Origin: Haloarchaeobius salinus
Lineage (GTDB): Archaea; Halobacteriota; Halobacteria; Halobacteriales; Natrialbaceae
Assembly (NCBI RefSeq): GCF_024464185.1
Contig: NZ_JANHAU010000006.1
Location: 124,001-188,000 of the forward strand
Reading direction: 5' to 3'
Length of the DNA: 64,000 nt
Below the pieces are notes generated by a model, which was not told the DNA's origin, did not search any database, and saw only the letters and a list, made by a program, of their open reading frames with translations. Each line of letters starts with the position of its first letter. Within the stretch, counting starts at the first letter, position 1. Below are positions 42,241-64,000 of the stretch, piece after piece. Made by a program: the position numbers and the translations under genes.

Positions 42241-42262
42241 CCAGCCAGCAGTATCTCAGACA

Positions 42263-43981: not shown

Positions 43982-45722
43982 TCTGACGCCGATACTGCGA
44001 CAGGACCAGCCGACCTCACACGTAAAGATAGGCGAATCGAAGCTCGGGAACTCGAGCGACGTGGTGGAGATACGCCACAAGAACCGGTCGGCCCACTTCC
44101 TCGCGAAGGCGGTCGACGACGGGCCGCTCGCGGGCGAGACCATCGGGAACAAGGTGCGGATGCACCGGAACGTCGCCGAGCTGTTCGGCGGTATCGACTC
44201 CTCGCGGGACTTCCGTGTGGACCCGAACGCCTCGGTGCACGACGTGGTGGAGTGCGACGCGGTGAAGCTCCACGCCGGCGGCAACGACCCCGAGAAGCTG
44301 GAGTCGTTCCTGCGCTCGACGAGCTACCTGCTGCATCCGTTCGAGGAGGTCGTCAAGCAGGGCGACGGGCTCGCGACGTTCACCGCCGCGAAGGTCGAAC
44401 CGAGCGGCTACACGACGGTGCGGGTGACCGACGACACCGACATCGAGTTCATCGGTGCGGGCGAGCTCCGCGAGCTGAAGGCGACGGAGTCCAGCCGGGC
44501 GAGAGGTGGTGGCGGGCCGACCCACGGCGGCGGCCCGGGCGGGGGCCAGCAGGTCGCCGACGAGGAGGCCGTCGAGGTGAACCTCGAGCCGAAGAAGCCG
44601 ACCGTCTCCTTCGAGGAGGACGTCGCCGGGCTCCCCGAGGTCAAACAGACCGCCAGGATGCTGCTCGCGCTGTTCGACGCCGAGACCCGGAACGAGGTCG
44701 AGCGCCGATACGGCCAGGCGTTCGCCTCGCGGGGGAGCTCGATGATGCTGTACGGTCCACCGGGCTGTGGGAAGACGCTCGTCTCGGAGGCCATCGCCCA
44801 CGAGGCGATGTACAACACGAGCATCGAGGACAACTACGGCGAGGTGAAGTTCCTCGAGGTGCGGGGCTCGGACATCCTGTCGAAGTACTCCGGCGAGTCG
44901 GAGAAGCGCGTCTCGGCGGTGTTCGAGAAGGCCCACGGCATCGCCCAGGAGGGGTTCTGCGTGCTCTTCTTCGACGAGGTGGAGACGCTCATCCCCGACC
45001 GCGGCGACGACTCGCTCCAGCGCCACGAGCGCTCGCTGACGAACGCGTTCCTCCAGGAGATGAACGACGTCGAGGACAACCTGCTCGTCATCGGCGCGAC
45101 GAACATGCCGTTCACCATCGACCCGGCGGCGACCCGCCGGTTCCCCATCCAGCAGTTCATCCCCCAGCCCGACGAGACGGTGATGGCGGAGGTGTGGCGC
45201 AAGCAGCTCGACTCCCTCTCCACGGCGGACGAGATCGACTACGAGCGCCTCGGCGAGGCGTCGGTCGGCTACACCCCGGCGGAGGTCGCCGACCGCATCC
45301 TCGGCAGCGAGTTCCAGCGCGAACTCGTCGAGAGCGTCATCGACGGCGACCCCATCGTTCCCGACACCGACTATCTGCTGGCGAAGCTGGCGGGCTCTGA
45401 GCCGAAGACCGTGCGACAGTACGTCGCCAGCGTCCGCGAGAAGACCGACGAACTGGAGGGCTACCCCGAGATGCAGCGGTACGTCGAGGCCCAGGCGGAG
45501 CGCCTGGATATGAGCCTGGGGGGCCAGCCGAGTGCACTCGAGTCCCTGCTCGGTGCAGGCGGTGCGGACGGCGGTGACGGCACGAGCGCGACCGACGGTG
45601 CGACGGGGGACGACCCGGCCGGCGACGACGGTTCGAGCGGCGATGCTGCGACGGATGGTGGAGCCGCAGGCACGACGCCGGACGGACCGGCAGACGACGA
45701 CGCGGGAGGCGATGCCGTGTGA
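43974..45722 (+). CDS. AAA ATPase with Cdc48-type N domain and a single AAA module
   Basis: A 582-residue AAA+ protein. Residues about 25-165 resemble the Cdc48/VAT N domain (KVEPSGYTTVRVTDDTDIEF is typical of its end). A Gly-rich linker (175-192) leads to one AAA module: Walker A GPPGCGKT 261-268, pore-loop region SKYSGESEK 303-311, Walker B LFFDEVE 331-337, sensor 1 GATN 374-377 and arginine pair RRF 388-390. Cdc48 has two modules; this has one, as Vps4 and katanin do. The last 70 residues are a disordered acidic Gly/Asp tail. It probably remodels or disassembles the coiled-coil products of this operon. Confidence 0.9.
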   Translation: MLNLTPILRQDQPTSHVKIGESKLGNSSDVVEIRHKNRSAHFLAKAVDDGPLAGETIGNKVRMHRNVAELFGGIDSSRDFRVDPNASVHDVVECDAVKLHAGGNDPEKLESFLRSTSYLLHPFEEVVKQGDGLATFTAAKVEPSGYTTVRVTDDTDIEFIGAGELRELKATESSRARGGGGPTHGGGPGGGQQVADEEAVEVNLEPKKPTVSFEEDVAGLPEVKQTARMLLALFDAETRNEVERRYGQAFASRGSSMMLYGPPGCGKTLVSEAIAHEAMYNTSIEDNYGEVKFLEVRGSDILSKYSGESEKRVSAVFEKAHGIAQEGFCVLFFDEVETLIPDRGDDSLQRHERSLTNAFLQEMNDVEDNLLVIGATNMPFTIDPAATRRFPIQQFIPQPDETVMAEVWRKQLDSLSTADEIDYERLGEASVGYTPAEVADRILGSEFQRELVESVIDGDPIVPDTDYLLAKLAGSEPKTVRQYVASVREKTDELEGYPEMQRYVEAQAERLDMSLGGQPSALESLLGAGGADGGDGTSATDGATGDDPAGDDGSSGDAATDGGAAGTTPDGPADDDAGGDAV

Positions 45723-49301: not shown

Positions 49302-49303
49302 CG

Positions 49304-49794: not shown

Positions 49795-52587
49795 TCAGAC
49801 CAGGAACTCGCCGCTGACGGCCTCGTTGGCGTCCGAGACGTACGCCAGCGTCCCCCGGACCAGGTGGACCAGCAACGCGACGAACGCGAGCACGTAGCCG
49901 CCGGTGACGACGAACATCGCGGTCCGGGCGGTCGAGAGCGCGGAGAGCCGCTGGTTCCGCTCCTCGCGGATGGAGTCGGCGGTCTCCCCCTCGCCGGCCG
50001 CCTCGAAGTTCGCGATGGCCTCGTCGTACCGGTCGGCGATGTGTGTGCGCTGGCTGTCGAACGGGCCGAGGTTCGCCGGGTTCAGCAGCAGCGGCGTCCC
50101 CCCGACGGCGGTGAGCATCGACCCGCTCATGTTCTCACGGGCAGTCCGGGCCTCCTGCAGGCTGGCCTGCCCCTGGCTCACGTTCGTCGAGTAGGCCTCG
50201 AACGCGGCGTCCGCGTCCGCCTGCAGCTGGTTCGCCCGCTCGTCCTCCCCCTCGAGGACGGCGATGCGCGCCAGACTGCGCTGGATCATCGCCTCCTCCA
50301 GCAGCGAGGTCTCCTCGCTCGCGAGCCGGTCCTCGTAGTACGACCGCTGGGTCGCGATCTCGTCGTTCAGCACGGCGTTCCCCTCCGTGAGCGCCTGCTG
50401 GCCGAGCTCGCGCAGCTCCGGGTCCTCGAGCTCTGAGACGTACAGCGCGACCGTGTTGTACGTCGAGGCCGCCCTGACGAGCTCCTCCTGGGCCGCCTCG
50501 TTGCCCTCGGCCTCGCGCACCTCCTGTACGCGCTCGGTCGCGTTGAGGAACTCCACGAACGTCTGTGCGGCGGTGAACCCGCGCGAGATGTCCTGCCCGG
50601 AGTCGAGGTCACCCTCCTCTATCTTCTCCTCGAGGCGGGTCAGCATCTCGTCCATCGACCCGGCCGAGGTCGCGAGCGCGTCGTCGTCCTCCGCGAAGGA
50701 CTGGAGACCGTCGTGGGTCGCCTCGCTCTCGATGATGCCGGGCTCGCCGGTGATGGTGAACGTCCGGGGCTCGATATCGTCGCCGTTCACCCGGTAGGTC
50801 CACTCGTAGGGGGTCAACACCTCGGCGTCGGTGTCGAACTGGAGCTGGAACACCGCCTGGCTCTCGGAGCCCGCTGCGAGCTGCTCGGGGAGCCCCCGCT
50901 GTACGGTGAGCCAGCCCTGCTCGGGCCCGTCAACGCGCTGGAGCGTGAGATTCTCGACCGCGTTGTAGCCGAGCAGCTCCGAGACCGTCACCGTCCGGGT
51001 GTCGGTCTGGGTGATCTCCAGTTCACCGAAGTCGGCGGTCTCGGTGTCGAGCCCGAGGTCGGTCTCGTGGTCGACGGTGAGCGGCACCTCGACGGTCTGG
51101 GTGCCTGCGGAGGCGTTGCTGGACGTGAACCGAACGCTCAGCGTGTGGTCGCCCGCCGGGACCTCGCTGTCGAGGGTCACGTCCATGTCGTAGTCGCGGG
51201 TGCTCTGCCCGGGGATCCGGGGCGACGAACGGGTCAGCTCCGCGCTGACGTACTGGTCGTCGAAGTCGGGAGAGCCGACGCTGACGTCCTGCATCTCCAG
51301 TGGCAGGTCACCGGTGTTCTCGATGGTGGTGCTGACCTCCCGGGTGAACGTCGACTCGCCGCGCGGTTCGTCGAACGTGTAGGACGCACCCGTTCCCGTG
51401 GGCTCGCCGAACCGCGCCGGGTAGATGACACGCGCCTCGACGCGGAAGGTCTCCGGGTTGGCGTCGGAATCGTCCGTTTCGAGTCTGACAGTCCAGGACT
51501 TCTCCGCGTGCTGGACCGCGTCGCCGTCGATGCTGACCGTCGCCGTACCGGTCCGGCTGTCGCCCGCACCGAGGGTTCCAGCCAGTCCGGAGACCGACGC
51601 GGAGGCGTTGCGATTGACACCGCCCGGGTCGCTGACGGTCACGTCGACCGAATCGTAGCCGGTCTCCTCTTGTATCGTCACGGGAGCACTGGCACTGGTA
51701 CCGACGAGGACGTCACCCAGGTCCACCACCGACTCGGAAGCGTCGACGGACGTCGCCTTCACGATCTCGACGTCGAAGCTGCCGGACAGGGTGTTGCCGA
51801 GGTTGTCCTCGATGGTCAGGGAGACCGAACGGGTCCCCTCGCGTGCGTCCTCGTCGACCGTCACGTCGACCGTGACCGAGGCGCTGTCGCCGGAGCCCAC
51901 ACGGTTCGGCACGTCGCTCGTACTCGCGGAGACGTAGGTCCCACCCGACGCGGAGGCGGACTCGACGTCCATCTCACCGTTGCCGACGTTCTGGAACTCC
52001 ACGGTGACGCTCGTCGTCTGCTCGTCCTGCCCCTCGAACCGGACCTCGGGGGTACCGTCGACCGAGCCGGAGCCGAACTGCGGTTCGAGGTACTGGACGT
52101 TCGCCTCGAGGTAGCCGGTCATCCCGCCGCTCTCCGAGATGTAGACCGACCTCGTGCCGCTCGTCCCCGTCCTCCCTTCTGACTCGCCGGTGGCCTCGTA
52201 CTCGACCTCGTAGGTCTCACCCTGGGTCAGCGAGAAGGTGTTGCTCGTCCCGCTACTTCCGCCGCCGGACCACCGGTCGAAGCTGAACGTCACCTCCTGA
52301 TCTGTAACCTCTCTCGGAGCGGTGACGGTCGTGTTGCTGTCCGCCGTGAACTCGATGGAGGCGGTGTCGGTGTCCGACTCGCCCTCGAACGCCCGCTCGA
52401 GGTAGAGCTGGGCGGTCTGTGGCGCGGTCGTCTCGGTTGTGTTCGCGTCGGTGGTGGCACTCCCGTCGAGTCTGCCAGAGTCCGTTTCGGTCGCCGCGGG
52501 ATGGTCAGCGGACGCCGGTGCGGCGACGGCTGCCCCGGCGAGCAGGAGCACGACCAGTCCGACCGCGAACACGGTGTTCCTACGCAT
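49795..52587 (-). CDS. Secreted Ig-like repeat protein with coiled-coil stalk and C-terminal TM
   Basis: A 930-residue protein. The signal peptide is MRRNTVFAVGLVVLLLAGAA followed by VAAPASA. Next is an ectodomain of several Ig/CARDB-like repeats (for example DGTPEVRFEGQDEQTTSVTV, VVDLGDVLVGTSASAPV, ENTGDLPLEMQDVSVG). A long helical stalk runs from about 640 to 870, then one TM segment (MFVVTGGYVLAFVALLVHLV) and a short cytoplasmic tail. I use ATG 52587, which overlaps the preceding stop; a GTG 10 codons upstream would place Ser/Arg residues ahead of the signal peptide. It is the last gene of the tubulin operon. Confidence 0.8.
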   Translation of the reverse strand: MRRNTVFAVGLVVLLLAGAAVAAPASADHPAATETDSGRLDGSATTDANTTETTAPQTAQLYLERAFEGESDTDTASIEFTADSNTTVTAPREVTDQEVTFSFDRWSGGGSSGTSNTFSLTQGETYEVEYEATGESEGRTGTSGTRSVYISESGGMTGYLEANVQYLEPQFGSGSVDGTPEVRFEGQDEQTTSVTVEFQNVGNGEMDVESASASGGTYVSASTSDVPNRVGSGDSASVTVDVTVDEDAREGTRSVSLTIEDNLGNTLSGSFDVEIVKATSVDASESVVDLGDVLVGTSASAPVTIQEETGYDSVDVTVSDPGGVNRNASASVSGLAGTLGAGDSRTGTATVSIDGDAVQHAEKSWTVRLETDDSDANPETFRVEARVIYPARFGEPTGTGASYTFDEPRGESTFTREVSTTIENTGDLPLEMQDVSVGSPDFDDQYVSAELTRSSPRIPGQSTRDYDMDVTLDSEVPAGDHTLSVRFTSSNASAGTQTVEVPLTVDHETDLGLDTETADFGELEITQTDTRTVTVSELLGYNAVENLTLQRVDGPEQGWLTVQRGLPEQLAAGSESQAVFQLQFDTDAEVLTPYEWTYRVNGDDIEPRTFTITGEPGIIESEATHDGLQSFAEDDDALATSAGSMDEMLTRLEEKIEEGDLDSGQDISRGFTAAQTFVEFLNATERVQEVREAEGNEAAQEELVRAASTYNTVALYVSELEDPELRELGQQALTEGNAVLNDEIATQRSYYEDRLASEETSLLEEAMIQRSLARIAVLEGEDERANQLQADADAAFEAYSTNVSQGQASLQEARTARENMSGSMLTAVGGTPLLLNPANLGPFDSQRTHIADRYDEAIANFEAAGEGETADSIREERNQRLSALSTARTAMFVVTGGYVLAFVALLVHLVRGTLAYVSDANEAVSGEFLV

Positions 52588-53650
52588 CGTGACCACCCTG
52601 GAGGACGACGATCTCACCGACGTTCGCCGCGTCGACCGTCCGCCGCCAGACGACGAGCCGGTGGGTCACCAGCATCGCCACCAGCGCGACGAGGAGGCCG
52701 TAGCCGACCAGCAACACGCCGCTCGCGAGCGCCAGCGTCGTCCGTGCAGACGAGATGTCGGTCCGGAGGGTCGCGAGCCGACTCTCGCGGTCTGAGAGGG
52801 CGTTCTCGTCCGCCCGCTGTTCGGCGTCGCGGACGTCCGCCAGCGTGCCGCCGGACTCCTGGTAGAGCGCGAACGTCCCGAACAGTTCGCCGCTGGCGAC
52901 CGCACTCACGCCGTCGCAGGACGAGCAGCTGTCGAGGAAGCCGCCCGCCCGCTCCTCGGCGGCGTTCATCGCCGTCACGTCACGCTCGTACTCGCTGCGG
53001 AGTTCCTCGACGCGGAGGTTCACCTGCGAGTACTTCTGGGTCGCCCCGGCCTGCCGGAACGCGGTCGCGGCCTGCCCGAGCAGCTGTATCTTCTCGGGGG
53101 TGCGCGTCACGTCGGAGGCCGACTGCAGCAGGGCGTCGCCCCGGTTCTCGTAGAACCGGCTGAGCGCGAGGTCCGCAAGCGGCGCGTAGGTGAGCCCCTG
53201 CTCCTCGAGCGCGCGGACGTGGTCCGAAGTCCCGTTCGCCGCCGAGAGGCTCTCGCCGACGGAGCCGTTCTGGGCCGCGGTGTAGCTCTCGTTGAACGAC
53301 CGCAACAGCGCGAGCACCGTCCCCATCTCGCGCTCGGTCGCGTCGTCGAACTCGACGACCTGGAGCTTCGAGACCGCGAGCGACCGGATGGTCTCGAACT
53401 CGGTGTACTGCTCGAACGCCGGCGTCCCCGACAGCTGGTTGAACGCCGCGAGGTACTCGTCGGCCGTCTCCGGCGGTGCGTCGTTCTGTGCCTGTCCCAC
53501 CGTCGTGTCGAGCGGGGGCTGCGTCGTCGCGGCCGTGTCCCCGGTCGTCGCCGACGCGGTGGGCGTCCCACCTGCGCTCGCGGCGACGGCCGGCGTCGCG
53601 GTCACGGACGCCAGTACCACCAGCCCGACGAGGAGTTTCAGTCCATCCAT
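52580..53650 (-). CDS. Secreted helical protein with C-terminal TM
   Basis: A 356-residue protein with a signal peptide (LLVGLVVLASVTATPAVAAS), a Thr/Ala-rich stretch, then a mostly helical ectodomain (ADEYLAAFNQLSGTPAFEQY, LGQAATAFRQAGATQKYSQV) containing a CSSC pair (DSCSSCDGV) that may form a disulfide. One TM segment (LASGVLLVGYGLLVALVAML) and a short tail follow. The stalk-TM end resembles that of the 930-residue neighbour. It lies 3 bp after the 1032-residue gene. The function is unknown. Confidence 0.75.
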   Translation of the reverse strand: MDGLKLLVGLVVLASVTATPAVAASAGGTPTASATTGDTAATTQPPLDTTVGQAQNDAPPETADEYLAAFNQLSGTPAFEQYTEFETIRSLAVSKLQVVEFDDATEREMGTVLALLRSFNESYTAAQNGSVGESLSAANGTSDHVRALEEQGLTYAPLADLALSRFYENRGDALLQSASDVTRTPEKIQLLGQAATAFRQAGATQKYSQVNLRVEELRSEYERDVTAMNAAEERAGGFLDSCSSCDGVSAVASGELFGTFALYQESGGTLADVRDAEQRADENALSDRESRLATLRTDISSARTTLALASGVLLVGYGLLVALVAMLVTHRLVVWRRTVDAANVGEIVVLQGGHDA

Positions 53651-53653
53651 CTC

Positions 53654-56600
53654 TCAGAACACCGTCCGCTTCATCCGTTCCCTGAGCTCGCGGCGGTCGA
53701 AGCTGTGCTCGACCGCGTCGAGCAGTCCGGCGACGAGGAGCGCCTGTGCGGCCTTTACGAGCGGCTCGCGCTCGCGTCTGGTCTCCTGGAACAGCTCCCT
53801 GGCGTGCTCCCACATCTCCGTCGCCGGCTCCACCTCGGTCAGGTCCGCCCGTTCGTCGTCGATCCGCGACCGGGTCCGCTCGATGCGGCCGGTCAGGTCG
53901 CTGTCCACGTCGGCATCGACGTAGTCGAAGTACGCCTCGTGGGTGAGCACGTCCCCGTCCCACCGGAGGTCGACGCTCGCCATGTCGGCACACGCGGCGA
54001 ACATGTCGACGTTGCGCTTGGTCGTCATCGCCGTGTTCACCCGCGAGATACCGTCCTCGGCGGCGTCCAGCAGTGCCTCGGCGACCTCGCCCGGCCGGTG
54101 CTCCCCGGTCGCGAACAGGTGGCCGTACTGCGGGAGTGCCTCGACCAGGTCGAGCAGGCGGTCGACGACGCTCCCGTAGTAGCCGGGGAACGCCGTGTCG
54201 CGGCCCGACTGCTCGGAGAGGCCGTCGACCTCGCGACGGAGCCGCCGGACCCGGTCCCGCATCGCCTGGGGCACCGTCCACTCGAACGACGCCTCGACGG
54301 TCACGTTCGTCGGCTCGCCCTCGTGGATGGCGACCTCGGTCGTCCGGGTCCGGAACAGGTCCGACTGCGAGCCGGCGACGTCGAGGCCGACGACGTAGTC
54401 GCCGACGAAGACATCCGACGCCCTGACCCGGCCGCGCTCGTCGGTCCGGCGCGATCCCTGTCGTTCGTCGACGCGGTAGCGGTCGCCCTCGCTGGGTGCG
54501 ATGGAGACCGGGAGCCCCTCGGTCGCCACACCGTCGACCTCCGCGGTCACCGACAGGCGGCCGGTCTTCCGGCTCAGCCCGACGTTCAGTTCGAGCGGGC
54601 CGTCGTCGGCCAGCGAGCAGTCGTTGCTCGCGGCGTTGTACTTCGGGTGGTCGACGCGCACGGTGGCGGTCGAGGCCGCGTACGGGAGCGTCACGCTGAC
54701 ACGGCCGTTCCGGCCGGTCTTGGCGGTCTCGTCGTCGCCCTCGTCCGGTTCGACCGTGACGCGTGCCCCGGGGATGGGTTCCCCGTCCAGCTTGTCGGTG
54801 ATGGTCACCTGGACACCCGGTCGGGGGAACGCGAGCTGGGCCTGCTCCCCGGTGTGCCTGCCGTCCGTCACCTCGAGCTGGTCGGTCCGCTGCTGGGTGC
54901 CGACCGCACCGGTCAGCTGCCAGCCACCGGGTAACAGCGACATGCTCACGACGCCGGAGTCGGTCGACCGCGTGGTCCGCGAGCCGGCACCGCGGGTCGG
55001 TTTGGCGACGACGTCCGCGTCCTCGCGGATGCGGTGGCCGTTGGCGTCGACCAGCGTCACCTTCACGTCGACCGGGTCGGGGGTGGTCGTCCCGGCACCC
55101 TCGCCGAAGTGCCAGAAGCCGAGCCAGGACAGGAGTCCGGCGAGCGCGAGCCCGGCGAGCCCGCCGACGACCGCGCCGACGAGCACGGCAAAGACAATGT
55201 CGATGGCTCCGCTGGAACCGGCGACGAAGAACGCGACGATGAGAGATCCGATCAGCCCGAACAGGCCACCTGCACCGAGCACGACCGCTGCACCCTTCGG
55301 ATTGGTCGGATCGCCGTTCGGGCCGGCGGCACCTGCAATCAACCGCACGACGACGAGGATGAGCGTCCCGATGATACCGCCCAGCAGCCCGACGCCGAGG
55401 AGGAGGCCCCAGTCCACGACTCCGTAGCTCGCGGGGAGGAAGCCACCACCGGCACTGGTGTTCGTCGCGTTCGTCGCGTTCGTCGCGTTCGTCGCAGCGG
55501 TGGTGGTCCCGGCCACCGTGGTCGTGGCCGTCCCCTCACTCCCGTTGCCGTCGGCCTGGTTCGTCGACGACTCGTTCGGCGCACCGGCGACGGTCCTCTC
55601 GACCGTCTGCGCCGAGACGATCCGTTGCTCGCCATCAGTTTCCACGACGAGCAGGACCGTCTGACCCTCCGGCAGCGACGTCCCGTTCTCGACGGCGTAG
55701 TAGCCGTCCTCCCGGGTGGCTCCGAGCCGGTCGACGTCACCGTCGCGCTGGAGCAGCATGGCCGACACGCCGTCCGTCTCGGCCGCGAAGTAGCTCCGGT
55801 CCACGCTCACGTTGATGGGTTCGCTCGCGTACTGTCTCGTCCAGCCGTCGAGGACACGCGGGCCCTCGGCGTCGCCCACCGCCAGCGTCGCAGTCACGCT
55901 CGACGCGAGTGCGGTCCGCGGCAGCTCGATGCCCGTCTCGGTCGCCTCGACGGGGCCGGCGAACTGCCCGTTCGGCGACTCGGTCGTCAGGTCGAGGTGG
56001 TAGCCGCCGGCGTCGAGCACCGACAGCAGGGGGTTCGCGATGGCGACGCTGTCGCCGCTGGCGACGAGCTCGCTCGCGTTCGCGGCGGCGTGACGCACGT
56101 TCACCGAGGTCGGCGACGCCGTCACGCCCTCGTCGGGGGCGACGCGGATGCGGCGGTCCTCGAACAGCGATTGCCGGTCGAGCGACCGGAGCGTCTCGCC
56201 GTCGAGCACCAGCGCGCCGGCGTCGGCGTCGTAGCTCGCGTTCACGGTCGCGTCACCGACGCTCACAGGCACGGGAGCCGTCGTGGCGAACCCGCGCACG
56301 TCGGCGGGCGTGAGGTGGACCGTGCCGTCCTCGAACGTCGTGACCGCCCCGTTCAGCGAGGCGTACCGGAGGTCGACTGCATCGTCGCCGAGCTCGGTCT
56401 CGCCGGCGTTGACCGTCACGGTCGCACCCCCGAGCGGTGCCGTCTCGTCGGGCGGCACGAGTGCCGTGACGGCGAGTTCGCCCTCGTAGGTGCCGGCGTC
56501 GGTCTCGTTCACGGTCGTCTCGGCAGCGGCATCGACGCCGCCGATTTCGAGCGTGACCGTCGAGAGGTTCCCCGTCTCGTTGTCCGGCACGACCGTCACC

Positions 56601-56752
56601 GAGACGGTGTCGGGGGCGGTCCGTTCGACGGAGACGTCCGCCGCGAGCGCCGCACCGTCGTTCGCGGGCGTGACTGCCGCCCCGACGCCGGCCACCGTGG
56701 CGACGAGGACAGCGAGTGCGAGCAGCGCCGTCGCGCGAGTTCCCCACGACAT
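53654..56752 (-). CDS. Large multidomain membrane protein with carboxypeptidase-regulatory-like domains
   Basis: A 1032-residue protein. A signal peptide (TALLALAVLVATVAGVGAAV) leads to an ectodomain of about 430 residues with Ig-like sections, ending in a Thr/Asn-rich linker that holds four tandem NAT units. Then come several TM segments (VDWGLLLGVGLLGGIIGTLI, FGLIGSLIVAFFVAGSSG, VFAVLVGAVVGGLAGLALAG). The C-terminal half should be cytoplasmic: carboxypeptidase-regulatory-like repeats (VQVTITDKLDGEPIPGARVT, LSVTAEVDGVATEGLPVSIA) and a helical end (VDRLLDLVEALPQYGHLFAT). It could link the cell surface to the tubulin-like proteins inside. It begins 2 bp after the 399-residue tubulin-like gene. 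Confidence 0.75.
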   Translation of the reverse strand: MSWGTRATALLALAVLVATVAGVGAAVTPANDGAALAADVSVERTAPDTVSVTVVPDNETGNLSTVTLEIGGVDAAAETTVNETDAGTYEGELAVTALVPPDETAPLGGATVTVNAGETELGDDAVDLRYASLNGAVTTFEDGTVHLTPADVRGFATTAPVPVSVGDATVNASYDADAGALVLDGETLRSLDRQSLFEDRRIRVAPDEGVTASPTSVNVRHAAANASELVASGDSVAIANPLLSVLDAGGYHLDLTTESPNGQFAGPVEATETGIELPRTALASSVTATLAVGDAEGPRVLDGWTRQYASEPINVSVDRSYFAAETDGVSAMLLQRDGDVDRLGATREDGYYAVENGTSLPEGQTVLLVVETDGEQRIVSAQTVERTVAGAPNESSTNQADGNGSEGTATTTVAGTTTAATNATNATNATNTSAGGGFLPASYGVVDWGLLLGVGLLGGIIGTLILVVVRLIAGAAGPNGDPTNPKGAAVVLGAGGLFGLIGSLIVAFFVAGSSGAIDIVFAVLVGAVVGGLAGLALAGLLSWLGFWHFGEGAGTTTPDPVDVKVTLVDANGHRIREDADVVAKPTRGAGSRTTRSTDSGVVSMSLLPGGWQLTGAVGTQQRTDQLEVTDGRHTGEQAQLAFPRPGVQVTITDKLDGEPIPGARVTVEPDEGDDETAKTGRNGRVSVTLPYAASTATVRVDHPKYNAASNDCSLADDGPLELNVGLSRKTGRLSVTAEVDGVATEGLPVSIAPSEGDRYRVDERQGSRRTDERGRVRASDVFVGDYVVGLDVAGSQSDLFRTRTTEVAIHEGEPTNVTVEASFEWTVPQAMRDRVRRLRREVDGLSEQSGRDTAFPGYYGSVVDRLLDLVEALPQYGHLFATGEHRPGEVAEALLDAAEDGISRVNTAMTTKRNVDMFAACADMASVDLRWDGDVLTHEAYFDYVDADVDSDLTGRIERTRSRIDDERADLTEVEPATEMWEHARELFQETRREREPLVKAAQALLVAGLLDAVEHSFDRRELRERMKRTVF
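55460..55495 (-). repeat. Four tandem 9-bp repeats encoding NAT sequons
   Basis: The unit GTTCGTCGC (plus strand) is repeated four times without change. On the coding strand it gives consecutive Asn-Ala-Thr triplets, each an N-glycosylation sequon, in the linker just before the first TM segment of the 1032-residue protein. Identical copies suggest recent slippage. Confidence 0.8.
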
Positions 56753-56754
56753 GG

Positions 56755-57954
56755 CTACCCCTCGTTCTGGTCGCGGTAGTCGGCGAGGTTGTCGAGCACC
56801 GTCTGCACCTCGCGCTCTGTCAGCCCCTCCGCTCCGGCGGTGTTCCCGCGCGCCAGGTTGTCCCTGACCTGTTCGTACTGGTCCAGCGAGTGGTTCAACA
56901 GCGGGCTCAGGTCGAAGCCGCCGAGCAGCAATAGCACGTCCACGTCCGACCCCCGGCCACGCTTCGGCGTCAGGCTGGCCTGCCCGGCGACCGAGAGGTC
57001 GTGCTTGTTCTGCCACTGGTTGAACGCCTGGTACACCTCGGGCTCGGTTATCTCGCCGTTGTCGATCATGCTCTCCGGCGCGCGGACGACCGGGAACACG
57101 ATCTGGGAGGTGGCGACGTCCATCGGGACGAACGGGTTCTCGGCCGCCTTGTCGAACATGTACTCCAGCTCGTAGATGTCGCCGTTCATGTCCGTCGCGA
57201 CGGCCGGCGTGAAGTGGTAGGAGCCGTACTGGCGCGGGATGGTCACCAGGTCCTCGACGTCGATGACGCCGTGGGTCTCGCGGCCCGCCCCGATCATCAG
57301 GTCGACCGCCTCGATGATGAGTTCGTTCACGCGGTCGTAGTCGCTCCCGTTCTCGCCGTCGAGGTGGGAGTTCGCCGCGACCATCACCATGTCGGCGTTC
57401 TGCCCGCCGTCGCGGTTGCGAAGCAGGCGGGAGAGCCCGGACACCGCGTTGAAGTGGCGCTGGTCGGGCTCCCAGTAGTACGGCCAGACCGCCATCGCGA
57501 CGTGGATGACGCTGTCCATCCAGGGCTCGCTCTCGCTCACGTTCAGCCCCTGTTTGAACTCGTCGACGACGAACGGGATGGAGCCGTTACCGGTGCCGCC
57601 GCCGAGCGTCGCCATGTAGAGGAACGCGTCGGCCGTTCCGAACGTCCGCTTGATGCGGTCCGTGATGCGGTCGAGGTCCTGATCCGCGGCCTGCCGGCCG
57701 TAGTAGTACGAGTTCCCGGCACCCTGCTTGTCGCCGAACTCGAGGGCGTGGTTCTCGCCGATGTCGTCGGCGTCGGTGATGCTCGCGTCGATCCGGTCGA
57801 TGGTGTTCCGGATGTCGTTCCGGTTCGTGTTCATCACGAGGATGCGGTCCTCGATGCCCGGGTTCTCCGCCCGGTTGAAGAACTGCGAGGCGATGCGGCC
57901 ACCACCCTCCCCGGAGGCGATGACGGCCCAGCGTGTGTACTGTCCCCTGGACAT
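56755..57954 (-). CDS. Divergent FtsZ/tubulin-superfamily GTPase
   Basis: A 399-residue protein of the FtsZ/tubulin superfamily. Readable loops: T1 region GEGGGRI 15-21, T2 MNTNRND 41-47, T3 GDKQGAGN 74-81 (followed by GRQAA as in FtsZ), and the signature T4 loop GGGTGNGS 118-125. Helix 7 has the nucleotide-binding Asn (N210 in RVNELIIEAVD), and the T7 region GVIDVEDLVTIP (229-240) keeps acidic residues that in FtsZ activate hydrolysis on the next subunit. It lacks the FtsZ C-terminal peptide. It differs from FtsZ1, FtsZ2 and CetZ in its long, wordy T5-T6 part and is likely a filament-forming GTPase. Its start overlaps the 708-residue gene's stop. Confidence 0.85.
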   Translation of the reverse strand: MSRGQYTRWAVIASGEGGGRIASQFFNRAENPGIEDRILVMNTNRNDIRNTIDRIDASITDADDIGENHALEFGDKQGAGNSYYYGRQAADQDLDRITDRIKRTFGTADAFLYMATLGGGTGNGSIPFVVDEFKQGLNVSESEPWMDSVIHVAMAVWPYYWEPDQRHFNAVSGLSRLLRNRDGGQNADMVMVAANSHLDGENGSDYDRVNELIIEAVDLMIGAGRETHGVIDVEDLVTIPRQYGSYHFTPAVATDMNGDIYELEYMFDKAAENPFVPMDVATSQIVFPVVRAPESMIDNGEITEPEVYQAFNQWQNKHDLSVAGQASLTPKRGRGSDVDVLLLLGGFDLSPLLNHSLDQYEQVRDNLARGNTAGAEGLTEREVQTVLDNLADYRDQNEG

Positions 57955-60080
57955 CAGGCCTCACCTCCGGCGGGTTTCTCGATGCTGTCGGCCGTCGTCT
58001 CCACCGAGAGACCGGTGTCGGCCGCGAGCTCCTCGATGACGGTGTCCGGGACCGGCACCGACAGGTAGTTCGACCTGATGCGTTCGTAGCTGAGTCGGTC
58101 CCCCTCGTCGAGGTTGTACTGGATGACGTTCATTATCTCCTGGGAGAGCTGCGAGTCGTCGTAGACGATGACGGTGCCGTCGTCGGTGCGGGTGACGGCG
58201 TACCCCTCCCGGTCCGCCCACTCCGCGAGCAGGCCGGGCACGAAGTCGTCGGTGATGGGGAACTCCATGTCGGTGCTGAGGTAGCCCTCCTCGTCGAAGC
58301 GGTCGCGGAGGCGCGGTGCGAACTCGGTGACGTGCTCGTCGATCTCCTCCTCCCGTCCGTCGACGAGCTGTTCGATCAGCGTGACGGGCTCGAGGTCGAC
58401 CGAGAGCTCGGTGTCGCCCTCGACCTGGACGGTGCGCTCGACGCGGCCGTAGTCGTCCTCGCCGGGGGCGACGACGAGCTCGTACTCGCCGAAGGGGACG
58501 TCCGCGAACGCGGCGGTGCCGACGAGGTGGGTCGCGACGACCTCGCGGCCGTCGTACTCGCCGCCGTCGAGGGTGACCGTGGCGCGTCGCTTCGCCTCGC
58601 TCCCCTCGTCGTAGGAGACGGTGACCTCGACGGTGTACGTCTCGACGTCGCCGCGGTGAAGCGCCGGCGCGTCGGGGTCGAACTCCACGTCGGGGTTGCG
58701 CCGGAAGTAGAGCCCGAAGAACTGGCCGGCGTGGCGCACCGGCAGGTCGTCCGCGGTGACGGTGCCGTTCTGCCGGAGCCGCTCCTCGATGGTCTCGCTC
58801 ACGTCGTCGTACGCCTCGACGACCGTCGCCTTCGTCTTCACCGTGCCGACGGCGTCGACGAGGTCGGCGACGACGGTGTCCCACTCGTGGTCGAGGTCGC
58901 GGACGGGGCCGATGGCCCGAAGGTCGTCCACGTGGTCCTCGTCGACGACGGCCGGCCGGCTGTAGTAGCCGGCGGGGAGCTCCTCGTCGTCGAGCGTCCG
59001 GACGTGGCGGTCGACCTCGGTCTCGAGGGAGGACACGATGTCCAGCGCCGCCGTCCGGACGGTCTGTCGGTGCTCGCTCAGCGAACCCACGTCGAGGGCC
59101 GAGTCGAGCGAGTCGAGCTCGCGTTGGACCGACCGCACCTGGTCGAACAGCTCGGCGTCGACGTACTGCTCCGCCCCGGAGTCGAGGATGGTGTCGACGA
59201 ACGCGTCGAGGTCCTCGCGGTCCTGGTCGAACGAGCCCGAGAGCTCGCTCTCCAGGGTCGCCTGGGCCTCCAGCACCGCGTCGACGGCGTGGCCGTACTC
59301 GCCGTCGCGACGGTCGGCCTCGGCGTCCTCGAGGTGGCGGTCGACGGCGGCCTCGTCGTAGGCGTCGGTCGCGTTGCGCTGGATGTCCCGGACCCGCGCG
59401 ATGGCCTCGTCGACGGTCGCGTCGGCCTCCATGCGGTACTCCTCGAGGTCCTCGCCGACGGCCTCCCAGTAGGCGAGCCCGCTGGGCGGCCCCTCGTCCG
59501 GCGTCGGCGGCTCCGGGGGCTCGGCTGGCTCGGCGGCGATGTCGGCGTCCGCGAGCGCACGCATGTCGGCGTGCAGGGCGTCGAGTTCGTCGCGGACGAA
59601 GTCGTAGAGCTGGTCGTCGCGGTCGGCCGCGAGCGTCGTCACCTCGGCGTCGATGCGCTCCAGCTCCTGCAGCTCGCCGCTCGCCGCCCCCTTGCCGACG
59701 CTGAACGAGCCCGAGTCGCGGTCGAACTCGCCGCCCTGTGCCTCGTAGTCCGAGACGAGCGAGTCCGCTCGGGAGCGGAGCGTGCTCGCGTCGAATCTGG
59801 GGTAGGACTCCTCGACGGTCGAGAGCGACCGCCAGAAGTCCCGCAGCGACTCCCCGACCTGTTTCGTGCGCTGTTCCACGTACTGTCCCGTGTTGTCCTC
59901 GCCGCTGAGGACGCCGCGGACGTACGCGACGGCCACCACCAGCAGGACGACCGGGATGCCACCGACCACGAAGTAGACGCCGAGTTGCGTGCTCGCGAAC
60001 ACGAACAGTCCGGCCCCCACCGCGGCCATCAGTACCGTCAGTGCGCCGATTCCGAGTGCGGCGCGCGTCTGTCCTTTCAT
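57954..60080 (-). CDS. Membrane-anchored cytoplasmic coiled-coil protein with Ig-like and winged-helix-like C-terminus
   Basis: A 708-residue protein. Two adjacent N-terminal TM segments (GIGALTVLMAAVGAGLFVFA and GVYFVVGGIPVVLLVVAVAY) put the rest in the cytoplasm. Residues about 60-400 are long acidic helices (a coiled coil), with a Pro/Glu stretch (PAEPPEPPTPDEGPP). An Ig or carboxypeptidase-regulatory-like domain is near 480-570 (YTVEVTVSYDEGSEAKRRAT, FADVPFGEYELVVAPGEDD). The last about 120 residues look winged-helix-like (PGLLAEWADREGYAVTRTDD, LSYERIRSNYLSVPVP). It is a good candidate for a membrane tether of the tubulin-like GTPases. Start at ATG 60080, overlapping the previous stop. 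Confidence 0.75.
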   Translation of the reverse strand: MKGQTRAALGIGALTVLMAAVGAGLFVFASTQLGVYFVVGGIPVVLLVVAVAYVRGVLSGEDNTGQYVEQRTKQVGESLRDFWRSLSTVEESYPRFDASTLRSRADSLVSDYEAQGGEFDRDSGSFSVGKGAASGELQELERIDAEVTTLAADRDDQLYDFVRDELDALHADMRALADADIAAEPAEPPEPPTPDEGPPSGLAYWEAVGEDLEEYRMEADATVDEAIARVRDIQRNATDAYDEAAVDRHLEDAEADRRDGEYGHAVDAVLEAQATLESELSGSFDQDREDLDAFVDTILDSGAEQYVDAELFDQVRSVQRELDSLDSALDVGSLSEHRQTVRTAALDIVSSLETEVDRHVRTLDDEELPAGYYSRPAVVDEDHVDDLRAIGPVRDLDHEWDTVVADLVDAVGTVKTKATVVEAYDDVSETIEERLRQNGTVTADDLPVRHAGQFFGLYFRRNPDVEFDPDAPALHRGDVETYTVEVTVSYDEGSEAKRRATVTLDGGEYDGREVVATHLVGTAAFADVPFGEYELVVAPGEDDYGRVERTVQVEGDTELSVDLEPVTLIEQLVDGREEEIDEHVTEFAPRLRDRFDEEGYLSTDMEFPITDDFVPGLLAEWADREGYAVTRTDDGTVIVYDDSQLSQEIMNVIQYNLDEGDRLSYERIRSNYLSVPVPDTVIEELAADTGLSVETTADSIEKPAGGEA

Positions 60081-61183
60081 AAGATCACCTGAAGTATCGA
60101 ACGTCCGCCCGTCGCAGCCAGCAGTCCGACGGTCGCCAGCAGGACGAGCACGCCGACGCCGACCGGGAGCCACTGCGCCTTCCGGCTGTACTCCGCCGAG
60201 GAGTCGACCCGGATGCGGCCCTCGGTGCTGGAGGCCGCCACGTACGGGACGATCCCGCCGAGGACGACACCGACCAGCAGCCCGCCGACCAGCCCGACCA
60301 GGAGGTTCGTCCGGACCGTCGACCGGGCGGCGGCCGCCCGTGAATCGAGCGCCGACTCGTAGCTCGCCTTCGCCTCGTTCGCGTCCGCCGCTGCGCTCCG
60401 TTCCTCCTCGCGGGAGGCGTCGATCGCGCCGACCGCGACCCCGGGCGTCGGCGACTCGTCGGCCACACCGAACAGGTACGAGCGGTACTCGCTGCCCGCC
60501 CGGTCGGTCGCGTTGGCCGCCGACGCGAGAGTGCGAAGCGTCTCCGTGGCGTTCGTCGCCCGCGCGTCGGTCAGCCCGCTTTCGTTCACCGCAGTCGAGA
60601 GGGATTCGAGCCGGTCGGCCGCAGCAGTCGTCTCGTTCAGCGACCCCCGGAAGTCCGCCTCGCGCTCGCCGTACGTCCCGACGGCGTCCGCGGTCGGGAG
60701 GAACAGCGTCCCCTCAGTGAACGCCGGCTGGACGATGTTCGGCGACGGCTCGGTGAACGCCGGGCCGGTCTCGGTCTTCCCCGCCGGCCGGACCTGCGCG
60801 GCCACCTGGAGCTGACCGTAGCCCTCCGTCAACCGGATGGTGACGCTGCTGTCCGTCCTGTTCTGCAGCTCGTAGGCGTCGCCGTCCGCGAAGTACCAGG
60901 CCCCGTTCTCGCCGTACGGCGTGACGACGCCGTCGGCGTCACAGAGCCGTATCGTGAGCACCGTCCCGGCGTACAGCGCGCGGTCGTCGCGGATGGGCTC
61001 CTCGCTGCCCGCGAGGGTCGCCACCGCGACCGGGTCGGTGGCCTCGACCGAGTCACAGGCGGCTACGTCGGCCGGTCCCGGCGTGGTCGCAGCCTGGGCG
61101 GCCACACCGCCCCCGGCGACTGGCGCGGCGAACAGCCAGACGGCACACAGCGCGACCAGCGTCGTTCGGAGCGCCCCTGTCAT
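60077..61183 (-). CDS. Secreted protein with helical stalk and two C-terminal TM segments
   Basis: A 368-residue protein with signal peptide TTLVALCAVWLFAAPVAGGG. A beta-rich ectodomain (TVLTIRLCDADGVVTPYGEN, SVTIRLTEGYGQLQVAAQV) has a pair of cysteines at about 43 and 79. A helical stalk with several N-glycosylation sequons follows, then a TM segment (NLLVGLVGGLLVGVVLGGIV), a short loop and a last TM segment (WLPVGVGVLVLLATVGLLAA). It overlaps both neighbours by 4 nt. The function is unknown. Confidence 0.75.
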   Translation of the reverse strand: MTGALRTTLVALCAVWLFAAPVAGGGVAAQAATTPGPADVAACDSVEATDPVAVATLAGSEEPIRDDRALYAGTVLTIRLCDADGVVTPYGENGAWYFADGDAYELQNRTDSSVTIRLTEGYGQLQVAAQVRPAGKTETGPAFTEPSPNIVQPAFTEGTLFLPTADAVGTYGEREADFRGSLNETTAAADRLESLSTAVNESGLTDARATNATETLRTLASAANATDRAGSEYRSYLFGVADESPTPGVAVGAIDASREEERSAAADANEAKASYESALDSRAAAARSTVRTNLLVGLVGGLLVGVVLGGIVPYVAASSTEGRIRVDSSAEYSRKAQWLPVGVGVLVLLATVGLLAATGGRSILQVIL

Positions 61184-61452
61184 TCGTAGGTCCCGTCGAT
61201 CCGCGACTTCTGGATCCGGTACACGACCACGCTCCCGAACACGATGCCCAGCCCGAGTCCGATGCCGCCACCGCCGAGGTACTGCAGCAGCGACTGCTCC
61301 GCGAGGGACTCCATCTCGGCGATACGCTCGGTTCGCTCGACGGCGTCGTCGACGCTCGCACCGTCCTGCGCCGCCACGCTCCCCCCGAGCCCTGCGACGA
61401 CGAGCACCCCGAGCACGACTAGCCCGACGAGGGCGACCCGAGGCGGCCTCAC
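61180..61452 (-). CDS. Small signal-peptide plus TM protein of the tubulin operon
   Basis: A 90-residue protein starting at GTG 61452, overlapping the tubulin-like stop as GTGA. An N-terminal signal peptide (VALVGLVVLGVLVVAGLGGS then VAAQ) is followed by about 28 mostly helical residues (VDDAVERTERIAEMESLAEQ), a Gly-rich TM segment (GIGLGLGIVFGSVVVY) and a basic tail (RIQKSRIDGTYE). It may be a small membrane partner of the preceding GTPase. It is embedded in a longer open frame antisense-like to the tubulin gene and is easily missed by gene finders. Confidence 0.75.
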   Translation of the reverse strand: MRPPRVALVGLVVLGVLVVAGLGGSVAAQDGASVDDAVERTERIAEMESLAEQSLLQYLGGGGIGLGLGIVFGSVVVYRIQKSRIDGTYE

Positions 61453-62966
61453 TGCACCATCGCCTCGGTTCGGTCCTCGTACTCGGCGGCCTTCTCCTCG
61501 ATCTCGGCGAGCCGGGAGATGTCGTCGCGCTCGTAGGTCAGCAGCGTCGTCACCGTCGCGAGGTTGCGGTCGTTGAGTGCGACGCCGAGGTTCACCTCCT
61601 GCAGCGCACACTGCGCCTGGAGGTACTCGCGGATGGTCGACGTCTCGATGCGGTTGCTCCCGCCGGAGAGGTAGCTCGACGGGGCGCGCACGAGCCCGAT
61701 GGCCTTCTGGGCGTCCGACGGGTCGAGGTCGGAGACGGACTGCTTGCTCGTCGCCAGCCGGACGAGCGCGGCGCTGTCGATGTTCTTCTTCCCGACGAAC
61801 GGGACGAGGTAGCCCGAGAGCGAGCGCGTCATCGTCGCGGCCCGCCCGAGCGCGGCGTAGCCCGCCTTCGAGTCGCCCCCACCGACGCCGAACGAGAGCG
61901 ACGTGACCACGTCCTGCACGTCGATGTCGGGCGTGTCGATGTCCGCGTAGTCGCTCGGGTCGATGCCGGAGAGGACGGGCCCGGCGACGAGGTCGTAGAT
62001 GCCGGCCGCGACGTACTCGTTGTACTCCGCGAACTGGCTCTCGGCCGCCGCCTGGTACGAGATGCGCTGGTTGTCCACGAGCACGATGCCGTCGACCTTC
62101 TCCTCCAGCCGGTCGAGGCCGTACCGGGCGTTCCATGCCTGGCGACCAGCGCCGCCACTACCTTCGTCGTCGCCGCCGCTGGTCATCGGTCCCATCGTGT
62201 TCGGGAGGATGGCCAGCGCGACGATGCTCGCGCGGCCGTCGGTGTACTCGTCGATGGCGTCGACGATGTGCGGCGCGATGCCACAGCCGGTACCGCCACC
62301 GAGGCCGAGGCAGACGAACGCGAACTGGATCTCCTCGCTCTCGGTCGCGTCACCCTGCTCGCCGCGGACCTCCGACTCCAGGTCCTCGACCTGGCGGTCG
62401 ACGTCGCCGTCGCCGTCGTCCCAGCCGCCACCGGTGTCGTCGACGGGCTCGTCCTCCCAGCCGCCGCCGGTGTCCTCGGCCCACTCGTCGTCCGGTTCTT
62501 CGGCCCAGCCGCCGTCGCGGTCGTCGACCGGCTCGTCGTCCCAGCCGTCGTCATACTCCTCGGTCCGTTCGTCCTCGTCCCAGCCAGGTCCGCCGCCGTC
62601 GGTCGCGAGTCCGCCAGCAGAGCCGAACCGGCGACGGAGCAGGTCGACCACCTCGTCGACGTGTGCTCCCATCACCTCGTCTGCCTCGACCGGGTCGCGC
62701 CCGAAGCCGCCGGTGACCTGCTCCTCGAACCCGGCGGTGGTCCCGTCGACGATACCGTGCTGGTCGGCGATGCCGAACTGGTCGGACTTGTCGACGTTCG
62801 AGAGGTTCTGCAGGTCCCGAACTGTCGAGTTGAAGACCATGGGTTCGGCGAGCGCCGTGATGTCGTTGCCGCCGAACAGTCCGAGCGTCGAGTCGGACGT
62901 GTACTCGAACACGGCGTCGACGATAGCACTCCCTGCCTGTCCGGCCCCCACGAACAGATACGTCAT
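61449..62966 (-). CDS. Divergent FtsZ/tubulin-superfamily GTPase with acidic Trp-rich insertion
   Basis: A 505-residue protein. The N-terminus FVGAGQAGSAIVDAV (5-19) is a tubulin/CetZ-like first nucleotide loop (GQAG). The signature T4 loop GLGGGTGCG is at 221-229, helix 7 has YNEYVAAGIYDLVAG (N316), and T7 reads DIDVQDVVTSL (347-357) with two aspartates. Between them lies a 67-residue acidic insertion (124-190) with repeated Trp-Asp/Glu units. The C-terminal 100 residues are helical. It is the start of the run of overlapping genes and has its own upstream TATA element. The two GTPases of this operon share little outside the loops, so a heteropolymer or two separate roles are possible. Confidence 0.85.
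   Translation of the reverse strand: MTYLFVGAGQAGSAIVDAVFEYTSDSTLGLFGGNDITALAEPMVFNSTVRDLQNLSNVDKSDQFGIADQHGIVDGTTAGFEEQVTGGFGRDPVEADEVMGAHVDEVVDLLRRRFGSAGGLATDGGGPGWDEDERTEEYDDGWDDEPVDDRDGGWAEEPDDEWAEDTGGGWEDEPVDDTGGGWDDGDGDVDRQVEDLESEVRGEQGDATESEEIQFAFVCLGLGGGTGCGIAPHIVDAIDEYTDGRASIVALAILPNTMGPMTSGGDDEGSGGAGRQAWNARYGLDRLEEKVDGIVLVDNQRISYQAAAESQFAEYNEYVAAGIYDLVAGPVLSGIDPSDYADIDTPDIDVQDVVTSLSFGVGGGDSKAGYAALGRAATMTRSLSGYLVPFVGKKNIDSAALVRLATSKQSVSDLDPSDAQKAIGLVRAPSSYLSGGSNRIETSTIREYLQAQCALQEVNLGVALNDRNLATVTTLLTYERDDISRLAEIEEKAAEYEDRTEAMVQ
62397..62597 (-). repeat. Acidic Trp-containing repeat region in tubulin-like protein
   Basis: Residues 124-190 of the 505-residue GTPase are built from imperfect units of the type GGW(E/D/A)(D/E)EP-x-DD, for example DGWDDEPVDD, GGWAEEPDDEW and GGWEDEPVDD. 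At least five tryptophans lie in an otherwise Asp/Glu/Gly sequence, which is expected to be unstructured and exposed between the first loops and T4. Confidence 0.75.
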
Positions 62967-62999
62967 TGATTCACTCTGGTATCTGTTCCGCTATCTGGA

Positions 63000-63006
63000 A
63001 TAAAAC
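63000..63006 (-). promoter_or_regulatory. TATA-like element before the 505-residue GTPase gene
   Basis: TTTTATT on the minus strand is 34-40 nt before the ATG at 62966. A second one, TTTTATAC (minus strand, about 63095-63103), lies just after the stop of the preceding gene. Either could drive the tubulin operon separately from the upstream helical gene. The 158-bp gap here contrasts with overlaps between all later genes. Confidence 0.5.
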
Positions 63007-63124
63007 AGTACTGGCCACTGAAAAGTTGTTTCACGTCGTCTGGTCTGCGTACGAAACGGGGGCGGCAAGAACTGTCAGCTTCGAGAGTCACCCGGTATAA
63101 AACTCCCGGCCGGTCCGCCGACGG

Positions 63125-64000
63125 CTACCCGCGGAGTCGGCGGAGCATGATGGAGAACTGGTTTCGCTCGTACAGCGCCTCCGTGGCGTCGAGCAGTTCG
63201 AGCGCCGCCTCCAGCGTTCCCGTCGCGCGCGCCGGGTCGCGCGACGCCAGCCGCTCGCCCTCGTCGTGGAGCGAACGCGCCAGCGAGACGAAGTGCCGGG
63301 GGATGGTGTGGTTGTGGTCGTCGCGGAGCTCGTAGTACTCCTCGACCTCGTCGATGCGGTCGCCGACCCGGTCGACGAGCTTGGACGGGGTCTCGGCGGC
63401 TGTCGCATCCGAGCGCGTCGAGGAGAGCGTCGGAAGCAGCGTGTCCCGGTAGAACGAGAGCTCGTGGCGGACGACGTACGGTCGCAGGAGGTCCGACTGG
63501 TCCGCGCGGTCGAGCTCCCCCTGCAGGTCGGCGACCCGCTCCAGGAGCGCGGACTCGACGGGGTCGCTGGGGTCGAGGTCCCGCTTCACCGCGTTGGCGA
63601 GCTCGGTCACCGAGTCGCGGTCGACCCCGGCGACGAGCTGGCGCGTCGTGGCATGCTCGTCGAGCGCGCCCGTGGCCGTCCGTAGCGCCGCCCGGAGGCT
63701 GTCCTCGCCGGTCGTCCCCGCCGACTTCAGCTCGTCCAGCAGGCGGACCGCTGCGGCGCTGTCGGGCGACTGCCGCGACTCCACCGTGGCCGCGACCGTG
63801 GCGACGTCCGACTCGCCCGTACTGAACGAGAGGTCGCCGCCCTCGAGGCGTTCGACGAGGTCGTCCCCGCGGGCGGCGGTGTCGCTCCCGCGGAGTGACA
63901 CCGCGGTGTCGCGCTCCGCTCGGTCGCAGACGTCCGCGAGGGTGCTCGCGTTCGCCGACTGGCTCGAGCGCTCCGCGTCGAGGTCCGACAGCGCGTCGAC
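63125..64000 (-). CDS. Helical protein upstream of tubulin operon, partial
   Basis: At least 291 residues; the frame stays open to the right window edge, so the start is outside. The visible part is almost entirely helical (VESALLERVADLQGELDRAD, PSKLVDRVGDRIDEVEEYYE, LARSLHDEGERLASRDPARA, TLEAALELLDATEALYERNQ) without cysteines or TM segments. An internal GTG at 63901 was not used because coding-like sequence continues upstream of it. Same strand as the tubulin operon, 158 bp before it. Possibly a further operon member. Confidence 0.65.
   Translation of the reverse strand, partial: VDALSDLDAERSSQSANASTLADVCDRAERDTAVSLRGSDTAARGDDLVERLEGGDLSFSTGESDVATVAATVESRQSPDSAAAVRLLDELKSAGTTGEDSLRAALRTATGALDEHATTRQLVAGVDRDSVTELANAVKRDLDPSDPVESALLERVADLQGELDRADQSDLLRPYVVRHELSFYRDTLLPTLSSTRSDATAAETPSKLVDRVGDRIDEVEEYYELRDDHNHTIPRHFVSLARSLHDEGERLASRDPARATGTLEAALELLDATEALYERNQFSIMLRRLRG

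Follow-up and report, generated by a model that had tools for sequence, protein, structure and literature searches.

Three divergent tubulin-superfamily GTPases in a two-operon gene system of haloarchaea, a relative of the predicted FtsZl1 membrane-remodelling systems

What further tubulin-like proteins might do in a haloarchaeon whose genome also encodes FtsZ1, FtsZ2 and CetZ is the question raised by a 64,000-nucleotide stretch (the window; contig NZ_JANHAU010000006.1, here C6) of the 3.85-Mb genome of Haloarchaeobius salinus. The original prediction for this window, made from its letters, described overlapping minus-strand genes from 62966 to 49795 that encode two proteins with the tubulin/FtsZ signature loop and six membrane or surface partners, and proposed a separate envelope-linked cytoskeletal system. 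The gene run is real: most of its genes overlap or touch, and 18 of 195 haloarchaeal genomes carry the cassette with its gene order kept. It forms part of a system of about 16 genes, made up of this minus-strand operon and a convergent operon, which belongs to the multicomponent membrane systems built on a tubulin-superfamily GTPase and, as a new and elaborate form, is related to the FtsZl1 systems predicted to remodel membranes. No description of this system was found in the literature searched.

Two tubulin-like genes (TubA, TubB) lie inside the 49795-62966 span, and a third (TubC), overlooked at first, lies just outside the window. The minus-strand operon extends beyond the window end, where three more genes start or lie (g01, TubC and g03), and is transcribed in the order g01, TubC, g03, TubA, g05, g06, g07, TubB, g09, g10, g11. 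From TubA to g11, consecutive genes are spaced by -1, -4, -4, -1, -1, 3 and -23 bases. With TM denoting transmembrane and Ig immunoglobulin, the genes are:

Equivalent 66463-68343, outside the window: g01, 626 residues, TM and helical.
Equivalent 64718-66322, outside the window: TubC, 534 residues, tubulin-superfamily GTPase (Pfam Tubulin 3.6e-13).
63125..64000, minus strand: 3' part of g03 (full protein 527 residues), N-terminal TM, cytoplasmic helical domain, conserved MLRRLRG-type tail.
61449..62966, minus strand: TubA, 505 residues, tubulin-superfamily GTPase (GGGTGCG; Pfam Tubulin 4.3e-13; alignment of 20 sequences), with a genus-specific acidic Trp/Gly insert.
61180..61449, minus strand: g05, 89 residues, two hydrophobic segments; a gene of ~85-95 residues stands at the equivalent position in relatives.
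60077..61183, minus strand: g06, 368 residues, signal segment, outer domain, two C-terminal TM segments.
57954..60080, minus strand: g07, 708 residues, two N-terminal TM segments, long helical region, prealbumin-like domain (478-566), C-terminal domain (AlphaFold2 model).
56755..57954, minus strand: TubB, 399 residues, tubulin-superfamily GTPase (GGGTGNG; Pfam Tubulin 2.1e-11; AlphaFold2 model).
53654..56755, minus strand: g09, ~1035 residues, signal segment, outer domain, TM segments, cytoplasmic prealbumin-like and helical domains.
52580..53650, minus strand: g10, 356 residues, signal segment, helical outer domain, C-terminal TM.
49795..52602, minus strand: g11, 935 residues, signal segment, Ig-like and helical outer part, C-terminal TM, conserved cytoplasmic tail.

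All three GTPases scored above the curated cut-off of Pfam Tubulin (PF00091, 33 bits), at 50.4, 44.9 and 50.7 bits for TubA, TubB and TubC, and the two loops recognized in the original prediction, GGGTGCG in TubA and GGGTGNG in TubB, are present. In alignments of 20 TubA, 20 TubB and 17 TubC sequences, the T1, T4 (GGGTG.G), T6 and acidic T7 motifs were kept in the 17-20 sequences of each family, with the T4 glycines and threonine and the two T7 acidic residues (DxxD) invariant within each; T4 of TubC reads KGTGCG. In FtsZ and tubulin, the T7 acidic pair completes the active site of the adjacent subunit. A three-dimensional fold was predicted for TubB, and TubA and TubC were placed by profile alignment. 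The TubB AlphaFold2 model, built from 20 sequences (predicted local distance difference test score, pLDDT, 83.8; predicted template modelling score 0.88), aligned over residues 3-399 with OdinTubulin and with bacterial and eukaryotic tubulins (Z 37-38), giving Z 37.8 over 360 residues and a complete tubulin fold against OdinTubulin, and a target TM-score of 0.85 against CetZ1. The tubulin fold that had been proposed as a check is therefore present. The TubB model matches BtubAB and OdinTubulin over nearly its whole length, but identity is ~17%; the proteins studied here also differ from these tubulins in having no Pfam Tubulin_C match (none listed at E 0.1 for TubA, TubB or TubC) and an operon of membrane proteins.

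By profile comparison of full-length proteins, the nearest known family of all three was CetZ (2.8e-19, 9e-18 and 4.6e-10 for TubA, TubB and TubC), with weaker values against FtsZ (5.1e-12, 1.8e-9 and 7.8e-9), and the top PDB sequence matches of TubA and TubB were entries 3zid and 4b46, both CetZ-type structures. In a maximum-likelihood tree of 63 sequences, TubA, TubB and TubC each formed a 100/100 clade on a long stem, and these clades fell outside FtsZ1, FtsZ2, and the group of CetZ with tandem CetZ-like pairs (99/97). The tree supports TubA, TubB and TubC as tubulin-superfamily proteins distinct from FtsZ1, FtsZ2 and CetZ; since its long branches were flagged and the order of its deep forks is unsure, no deep order among tubulin families is claimed. 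An FtsZ1 or FtsZ2 identity was ruled out by TIGR00065 scores of 24-37 bits (equivalog cut-off 295) and by placement outside both tree clades, and CetZ membership by the three separate clades outside CetZ. The published cetZ neighbourhoods (PMC9856176, in the part consulted) are of another kind than this operon; the same 2023 study counted non-canonical tubulin-superfamily proteins and, in that part, did not describe such operons. Three deeply divergent tubulins in one gene cluster bear on the origin of tubulin heteromers. As a separate matter, the tandem CetZ-like gene pairs of several haloarchaea (L029, L030, L053, L070/L075, L074/L078) form their own branch beside CetZ.

Two of the GTPases carry additional regions. 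Between T1 and T4, TubA has a long acidic Trp/Gly-rich insert (residues ~122-205; DGGWAEEPDDEWAEDTGGGWEDEP...), which is confined to the source genome and two Haloarchaeobius relatives, other TubA proteins having 387-430 residues. At the TubC N-terminus, a CxxC...HxxxxH (C2H2-type) motif was present in 22 of 22 sequences, the distant TubC of genome G006 included. From this motif we infer that the TubC N-terminus may bind zinc; the motif is the basis of the claim because Pfam gives just a sub-threshold C2H2 match (G006 TubC only).

The six membrane-anchored or secreted partners named in the original prediction are present, at about 89-1035 residues, with predicted signal or TM segments. A hydropathy scan gave g06, g10 and g11 a predicted signal segment with C-terminal TM helices; for g09 the predicted TM helices are internal, again with a signal segment, and for g01, g03, g05 and g07 they are N-terminal. 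The g03 end (MLRRLRG) and the cytoplasmic tails of g11 and g09 are conserved, and the bodies of these proteins weakly so. For g07, an AlphaFold2 model (pLDDT 86.0) showed a pair of TM helices, an extended helical part, a domain of the prealbumin/CnaB type and, at the C-terminus, a small further domain; in a fold search the prealbumin/CnaB-like domain, a common one, was matched (Z about 10), and the helical part gave no match. The Halobaculum g09 orthologue carries a carboxypeptidase-regulatory domain. The Natrinema g03 homologue (L087:7072-8895) has a zinc ribbon and, in place of the MLRRLRG-type end, a bacterial PH domain, which suggests that the g03 membrane anchor is exchangeable. The names SepX/GlpR, DpdH, GvpN and JetC for coiled-coil proteins were disregarded, the underlying hidden Markov model matches being marginal or far below cut-off.

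Across the 195 genomes of the order, clear TubA orthologues were found in 18, the source genome included (~9% of sampled haloarchaea), TubB in exactly these 18, and TubC in 16 of them and as a distant copy in G006. As the original prediction had proposed to check, the neighbourhood recurs among haloarchaea, with gene order kept across loci; G132 and G138 are without the g01-TubC-g03 part. Chance neighbours are ruled out because the order as a whole comes back in 18 genomes and in named replicons. Between loci, identity is ~61-62% for the tubulins and 28-40% for the partners, and the tubulins have a ratio of nonsynonymous to synonymous substitution rates of about 0.03-0.18, against 0.31-0.56 in g09; all are therefore under purifying selection, with the large-outer-domain protein changing fastest. 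Pairwise distances of all families correlate at 0.81-0.99, a range that does not separate functional coupling from shared descent. Among named relatives, Haloarchaeobius sp. FL176 and H. iranensis stand nearest (85-87% TubA identity), and one single-sequence scan of the named genome collection matched two Haloarchaeobius genomes only. In G006, a lone TubC module (g03, TubC, g01) occurs with a g09-like protein bearing carboxypeptidase-regulatory and protein kinase domains (L051, 8403-16666).

A five-gene convergent operon (window 41122-48583), first spotted adjoining the tubulin operon in the annotation of named replicons and then in the source window, is part of the system:

41122..42240, plus strand: C1, ~372 residues, soluble, first gene of the operon; positional homologues in 13 further genome loci, R1 PHS2 (OE_RS12000), Natrinema and Halobaculum.
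42224..43303, plus strand: C2, 359 residues, soluble, helical; equivalent position in relatives.
43316..43981, plus strand: C3, 221 residues, soluble, fast evolving; equivalent position in most relatives.
43974..45722, plus strand: AAA ATPase, 582 residues, N-terminal domain and one classical-clade AAA domain (Pfam AAA 1.3e-31).
45719..48583, plus strand: PROP, 954 residues, PQQ-type beta-propeller and C-terminal region (Pfam PQQ_2 7.3e-8).

PROP is convergent to g11 in every linked locus; no signal peptide was apparent in it, and its orthologue in R1 has a C-terminal CARDB/Ig-like region. For the AAA protein, the best NCBIfam profile was CDC48, followed by proteasome ATPase and CdvC, all below cut-off; neither a katanin/spastin/Vps4 nor a CDC48-group assignment was fixed, no profile being near its cut-off. 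A search of the 195 genomes gave AAA orthologues in 17, namely all 16 with a complete tubulin operon and one contig-edge fragment in an incomplete genome, and none in either genome lacking TubC (G132, G138). The hypergeometric probability of the AAA-TubB overlap is ~2e-20 on the assumption of independent genomes, which they are not. Co-inheritance of an AAA ATPase with tubulins outside eukaryotes suggests active polymer turnover.

Makarova and Koonin predicted in 2010 (PMC2875224) that FtsZl1 (FtsZ-like 1, Pfam Tubulin_2) lies at the core of membrane-remodelling systems of several components, among them vWA proteins, kinases and P-loop GTPases. An FtsZl1 identity of the three tubulins was ruled out by the Tubulin_2 cut-off (PF13809, 27 bits), the scores being 21.8 bits for TubA and 13.9 bits for a TubC orthologue, with no match for TubB. 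As in the FtsZl1 systems, an operon combines a tubulin-superfamily GTPase with membrane and coiled-coil proteins specific to the lineage, normal FtsZ is present as well, and the distribution is patchy; unlike them, the system has three separate tubulins and an AAA ATPase and no vWA, P-loop GTPase or OmpA gene (Pfam found neither vWA nor P-loop GTPase among the 16 proteins). The link is closer at the level of partners. When the phylum was searched with a profile, TubA-like proteins turned up in 33 genomes of another family, for which methyl-coenzyme M reductase (MCR) is encoded in four of six tested genomes. In the five loci examined, a g07 homologue follows the TubA-like gene and g10 and g11 homologues are divergent from it; three of these loci (L103, L104, L107) continue with genes for a ~146-residue hydrophobic protein and a ~900-residue FtsZl1 (Tubulin_2 81-87 bits). 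G432, of the same family, has an intact TubA, and a TubB with g07 and g09 homologues. In haloarchaeal G132 and G138, a 1157-residue FtsZl1 gene adjoins the TubA-g11 operon; by gene content, FtsZl1 may replace TubC in some versions. These shared partners (TubA-like, g07, g10 and g11 homologues), a link found here and outside the published FtsZl1 definition, together with the FtsZl1 genes adjoining in two haloarchaea, are why the system is placed as a relative of FtsZl1 systems. The original prediction had pointed to other FtsZ-like families linked to membrane remodelling in general terms; the shared parts now make that reference specific, and the common partners supply the FtsZl1 systems with concrete conserved membrane and surface components. 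The source genome itself holds a separate FtsZl1-type gene (G000:C8:91069-91470, Tubulin_2 32.3 bits, open frame 807 residues).

Since the GTPases always come with one and the same set of membrane and surface partners, they are best read as part of a separate envelope-linked system; the original prediction is in this partly supported, and had missed the third tubulin and the AAA/propeller operon. Filament formation and cellular function we infer, and we give about an even chance to the view that the ~16 genes, in two operons that move together, encode a tubulin machine linked to the membrane, with local envelope remodelling as its output. In such a machine, TubA, TubB and TubC would bind GTP and polymerise at the cytoplasmic face, probably together; g01, g03, g07 and g09, with TM helices and large cytoplasmic helical domains, would tether the polymer to the membrane, and g06, g09, g10 and g11 would pass the link across it to outer Ig-like and helical domains. 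The AAA ATPase may extract subunits or reset the polymer, and PROP and C1-C3 may act as cytoplasmic adaptors. Ordinary division is a less likely output than a protrusion, vesicle, contact or bridge, given that the system coexists with FtsZ1, FtsZ2 and CetZ and that about nine-tenths of sampled haloarchaea are without it. A more specific version is tentative, and we lean against it: in a prokaryote, an obligate three-component tubulin heteropolymer, one subunit of which bears a zinc finger, would be served by its own AAA ATPase and connected across the membrane to surface proteins. Such a cytomotive envelope machine would be without known parallel in any cell, and would have evolved from or alongside FtsZl1 systems by the addition or exchange of tubulin subunits.

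Several points weigh against an envelope-remodelling machine. The membrane topology of the partners is a hydropathy prediction, and a role in membrane remodelling alone leaves the TubC C2H2 motif unexplained. The AAA domain, a generic one, is tied to the tubulins by gene neighbourhood only, and in two genomes (G076, G153) the AAA operon lies away from them, adjoining in these relocated copies a tandem pair of CetZ-like genes. The TubA-like protein of MCR-encoding archaea has lost T4 and T7, on account of which a GTP-free scaffold role for the TubA family is possible. That loss, with the partners retained, implies that at least one member can function without GTPase activity, and it favours a membrane-bound scaffold or signalling complex, in which fixed tubulin-fold heteromers would serve as switches without cytomotive filaments; the coupling of a TubC module with a protein kinase domain in G006 points the same way. 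The T4 motif and the T7 acidic pair, an inter-subunit catalytic contact, are nevertheless invariant in all three haloarchaeal tubulins, and we regard this explanation as unlikely. Another alternative is an accessory or alternative division apparatus, to which the CetZ- and FtsZ-type fold and the AAA match to CdvC (among others, and far below cut-off) would be suited. FtsZ1 and FtsZ2 occur in the same genomes, however, and a system carried by ~9% of sampled haloarchaea is dispensable for division, which leaves such an apparatus improbable.

The carriers bear on a third alternative, a DNA-handling device for TubZ-like plasmid partition or DNA transfer, with TubC binding DNA through its C2H2 motif. 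Searches of plasmid proteins identified five named carriers with the system on large plasmids: Halobacterium salinarum R1 (PHS2, complete system), Natrinema sp. SYSU A 869 and three Halobaculum species. In R1 the TubA-g11 genes are OE_RS12075-OE_RS12025 and the AAA operon is OE_RS12020-OE_RS12000. The annotation of these carriers labels TubA and TubC as FtsZ and nearly all remaining genes as hypothetical. The DNA-handling reading is kept because of the TubC finger and this plasmid carriage, and TubZ/RepX proteins are likewise tubulin-superfamily GTPases on plasmids, with moderate profile matches to those studied here. Unlike TubZ/RepX, however, the system has many membrane partners and lies on large chromosomal contigs in many sampled carriers (G051 and G120, for example); partition needs none of the eight membrane or secreted proteins, and a single finger may bind protein instead. 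Partition partners (a TubR-type regulator, centromere repeats) were not noticed in the annotated neighbourhoods, no search having been aimed at them. A DNA-handling role is accordingly held to be rather improbable, if slightly less so than a division role.

Outside both operons the flanks vary from one named replicon to the next: H. roseum has oxidase genes there, H. halobium has genes for nitrous-oxide reductase, and Natrinema has a TFIIB gene. This variation fits transfer as one cassette. Patchy distribution, variable flanks and plasmid carriage would also suit a defence or antagonism system, as would AAA matches to the PADLOC models IetA and TRIP13, but these AAA matches are generic, the other tested proteins give coiled-coil-level matches to defence models at most, and phage and viral collections yielded no relative; we judge this the least probable of the explanations weighed here. 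A viral origin was dropped, phage records and viral contigs holding no relative. In the record of the Halobaculum halobium plasmid (L088), TubC (6233-7854) and TubA (9474-10591) are each annotated as two reading frames, and this copy looks broken; the same record has a second place that matches TubB, TubC and AAA.

Among described groups, Halo.Tub, an unplaced CetZ-like group of Halobacterota with several quasi-tandem copies among coiled-coil genes, mentioned in a 2023 study (PMC9871819), is possibly the same set of proteins or part of this system. Compared by description only, its C-termini are said to be unlike those of other families, and its text gives no 16-gene system, AAA operon or zinc-finger motif.

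On PHS2, the system lies in a stretch that is a 100% match to strain 63-R2 and belongs to a segment that NRC-1 plasmid pNRC200 does not share (PMC10264941, Tables 6a and 6b). Judged from these published coordinates, R1 and NRC-1 appear to be a natural presence/absence pair at the PHS2 place; with a complete copy in R1 that is apparently missing there in NRC-1, the system is testable in a model archaeon.

Between the two convergent operons of the source window (48591-49696) lie a DICT-domain gene and a DUF7344 helix-turn-helix gene. Named relatives have neither at this place, and in H. salinus the two are possible local regulators.

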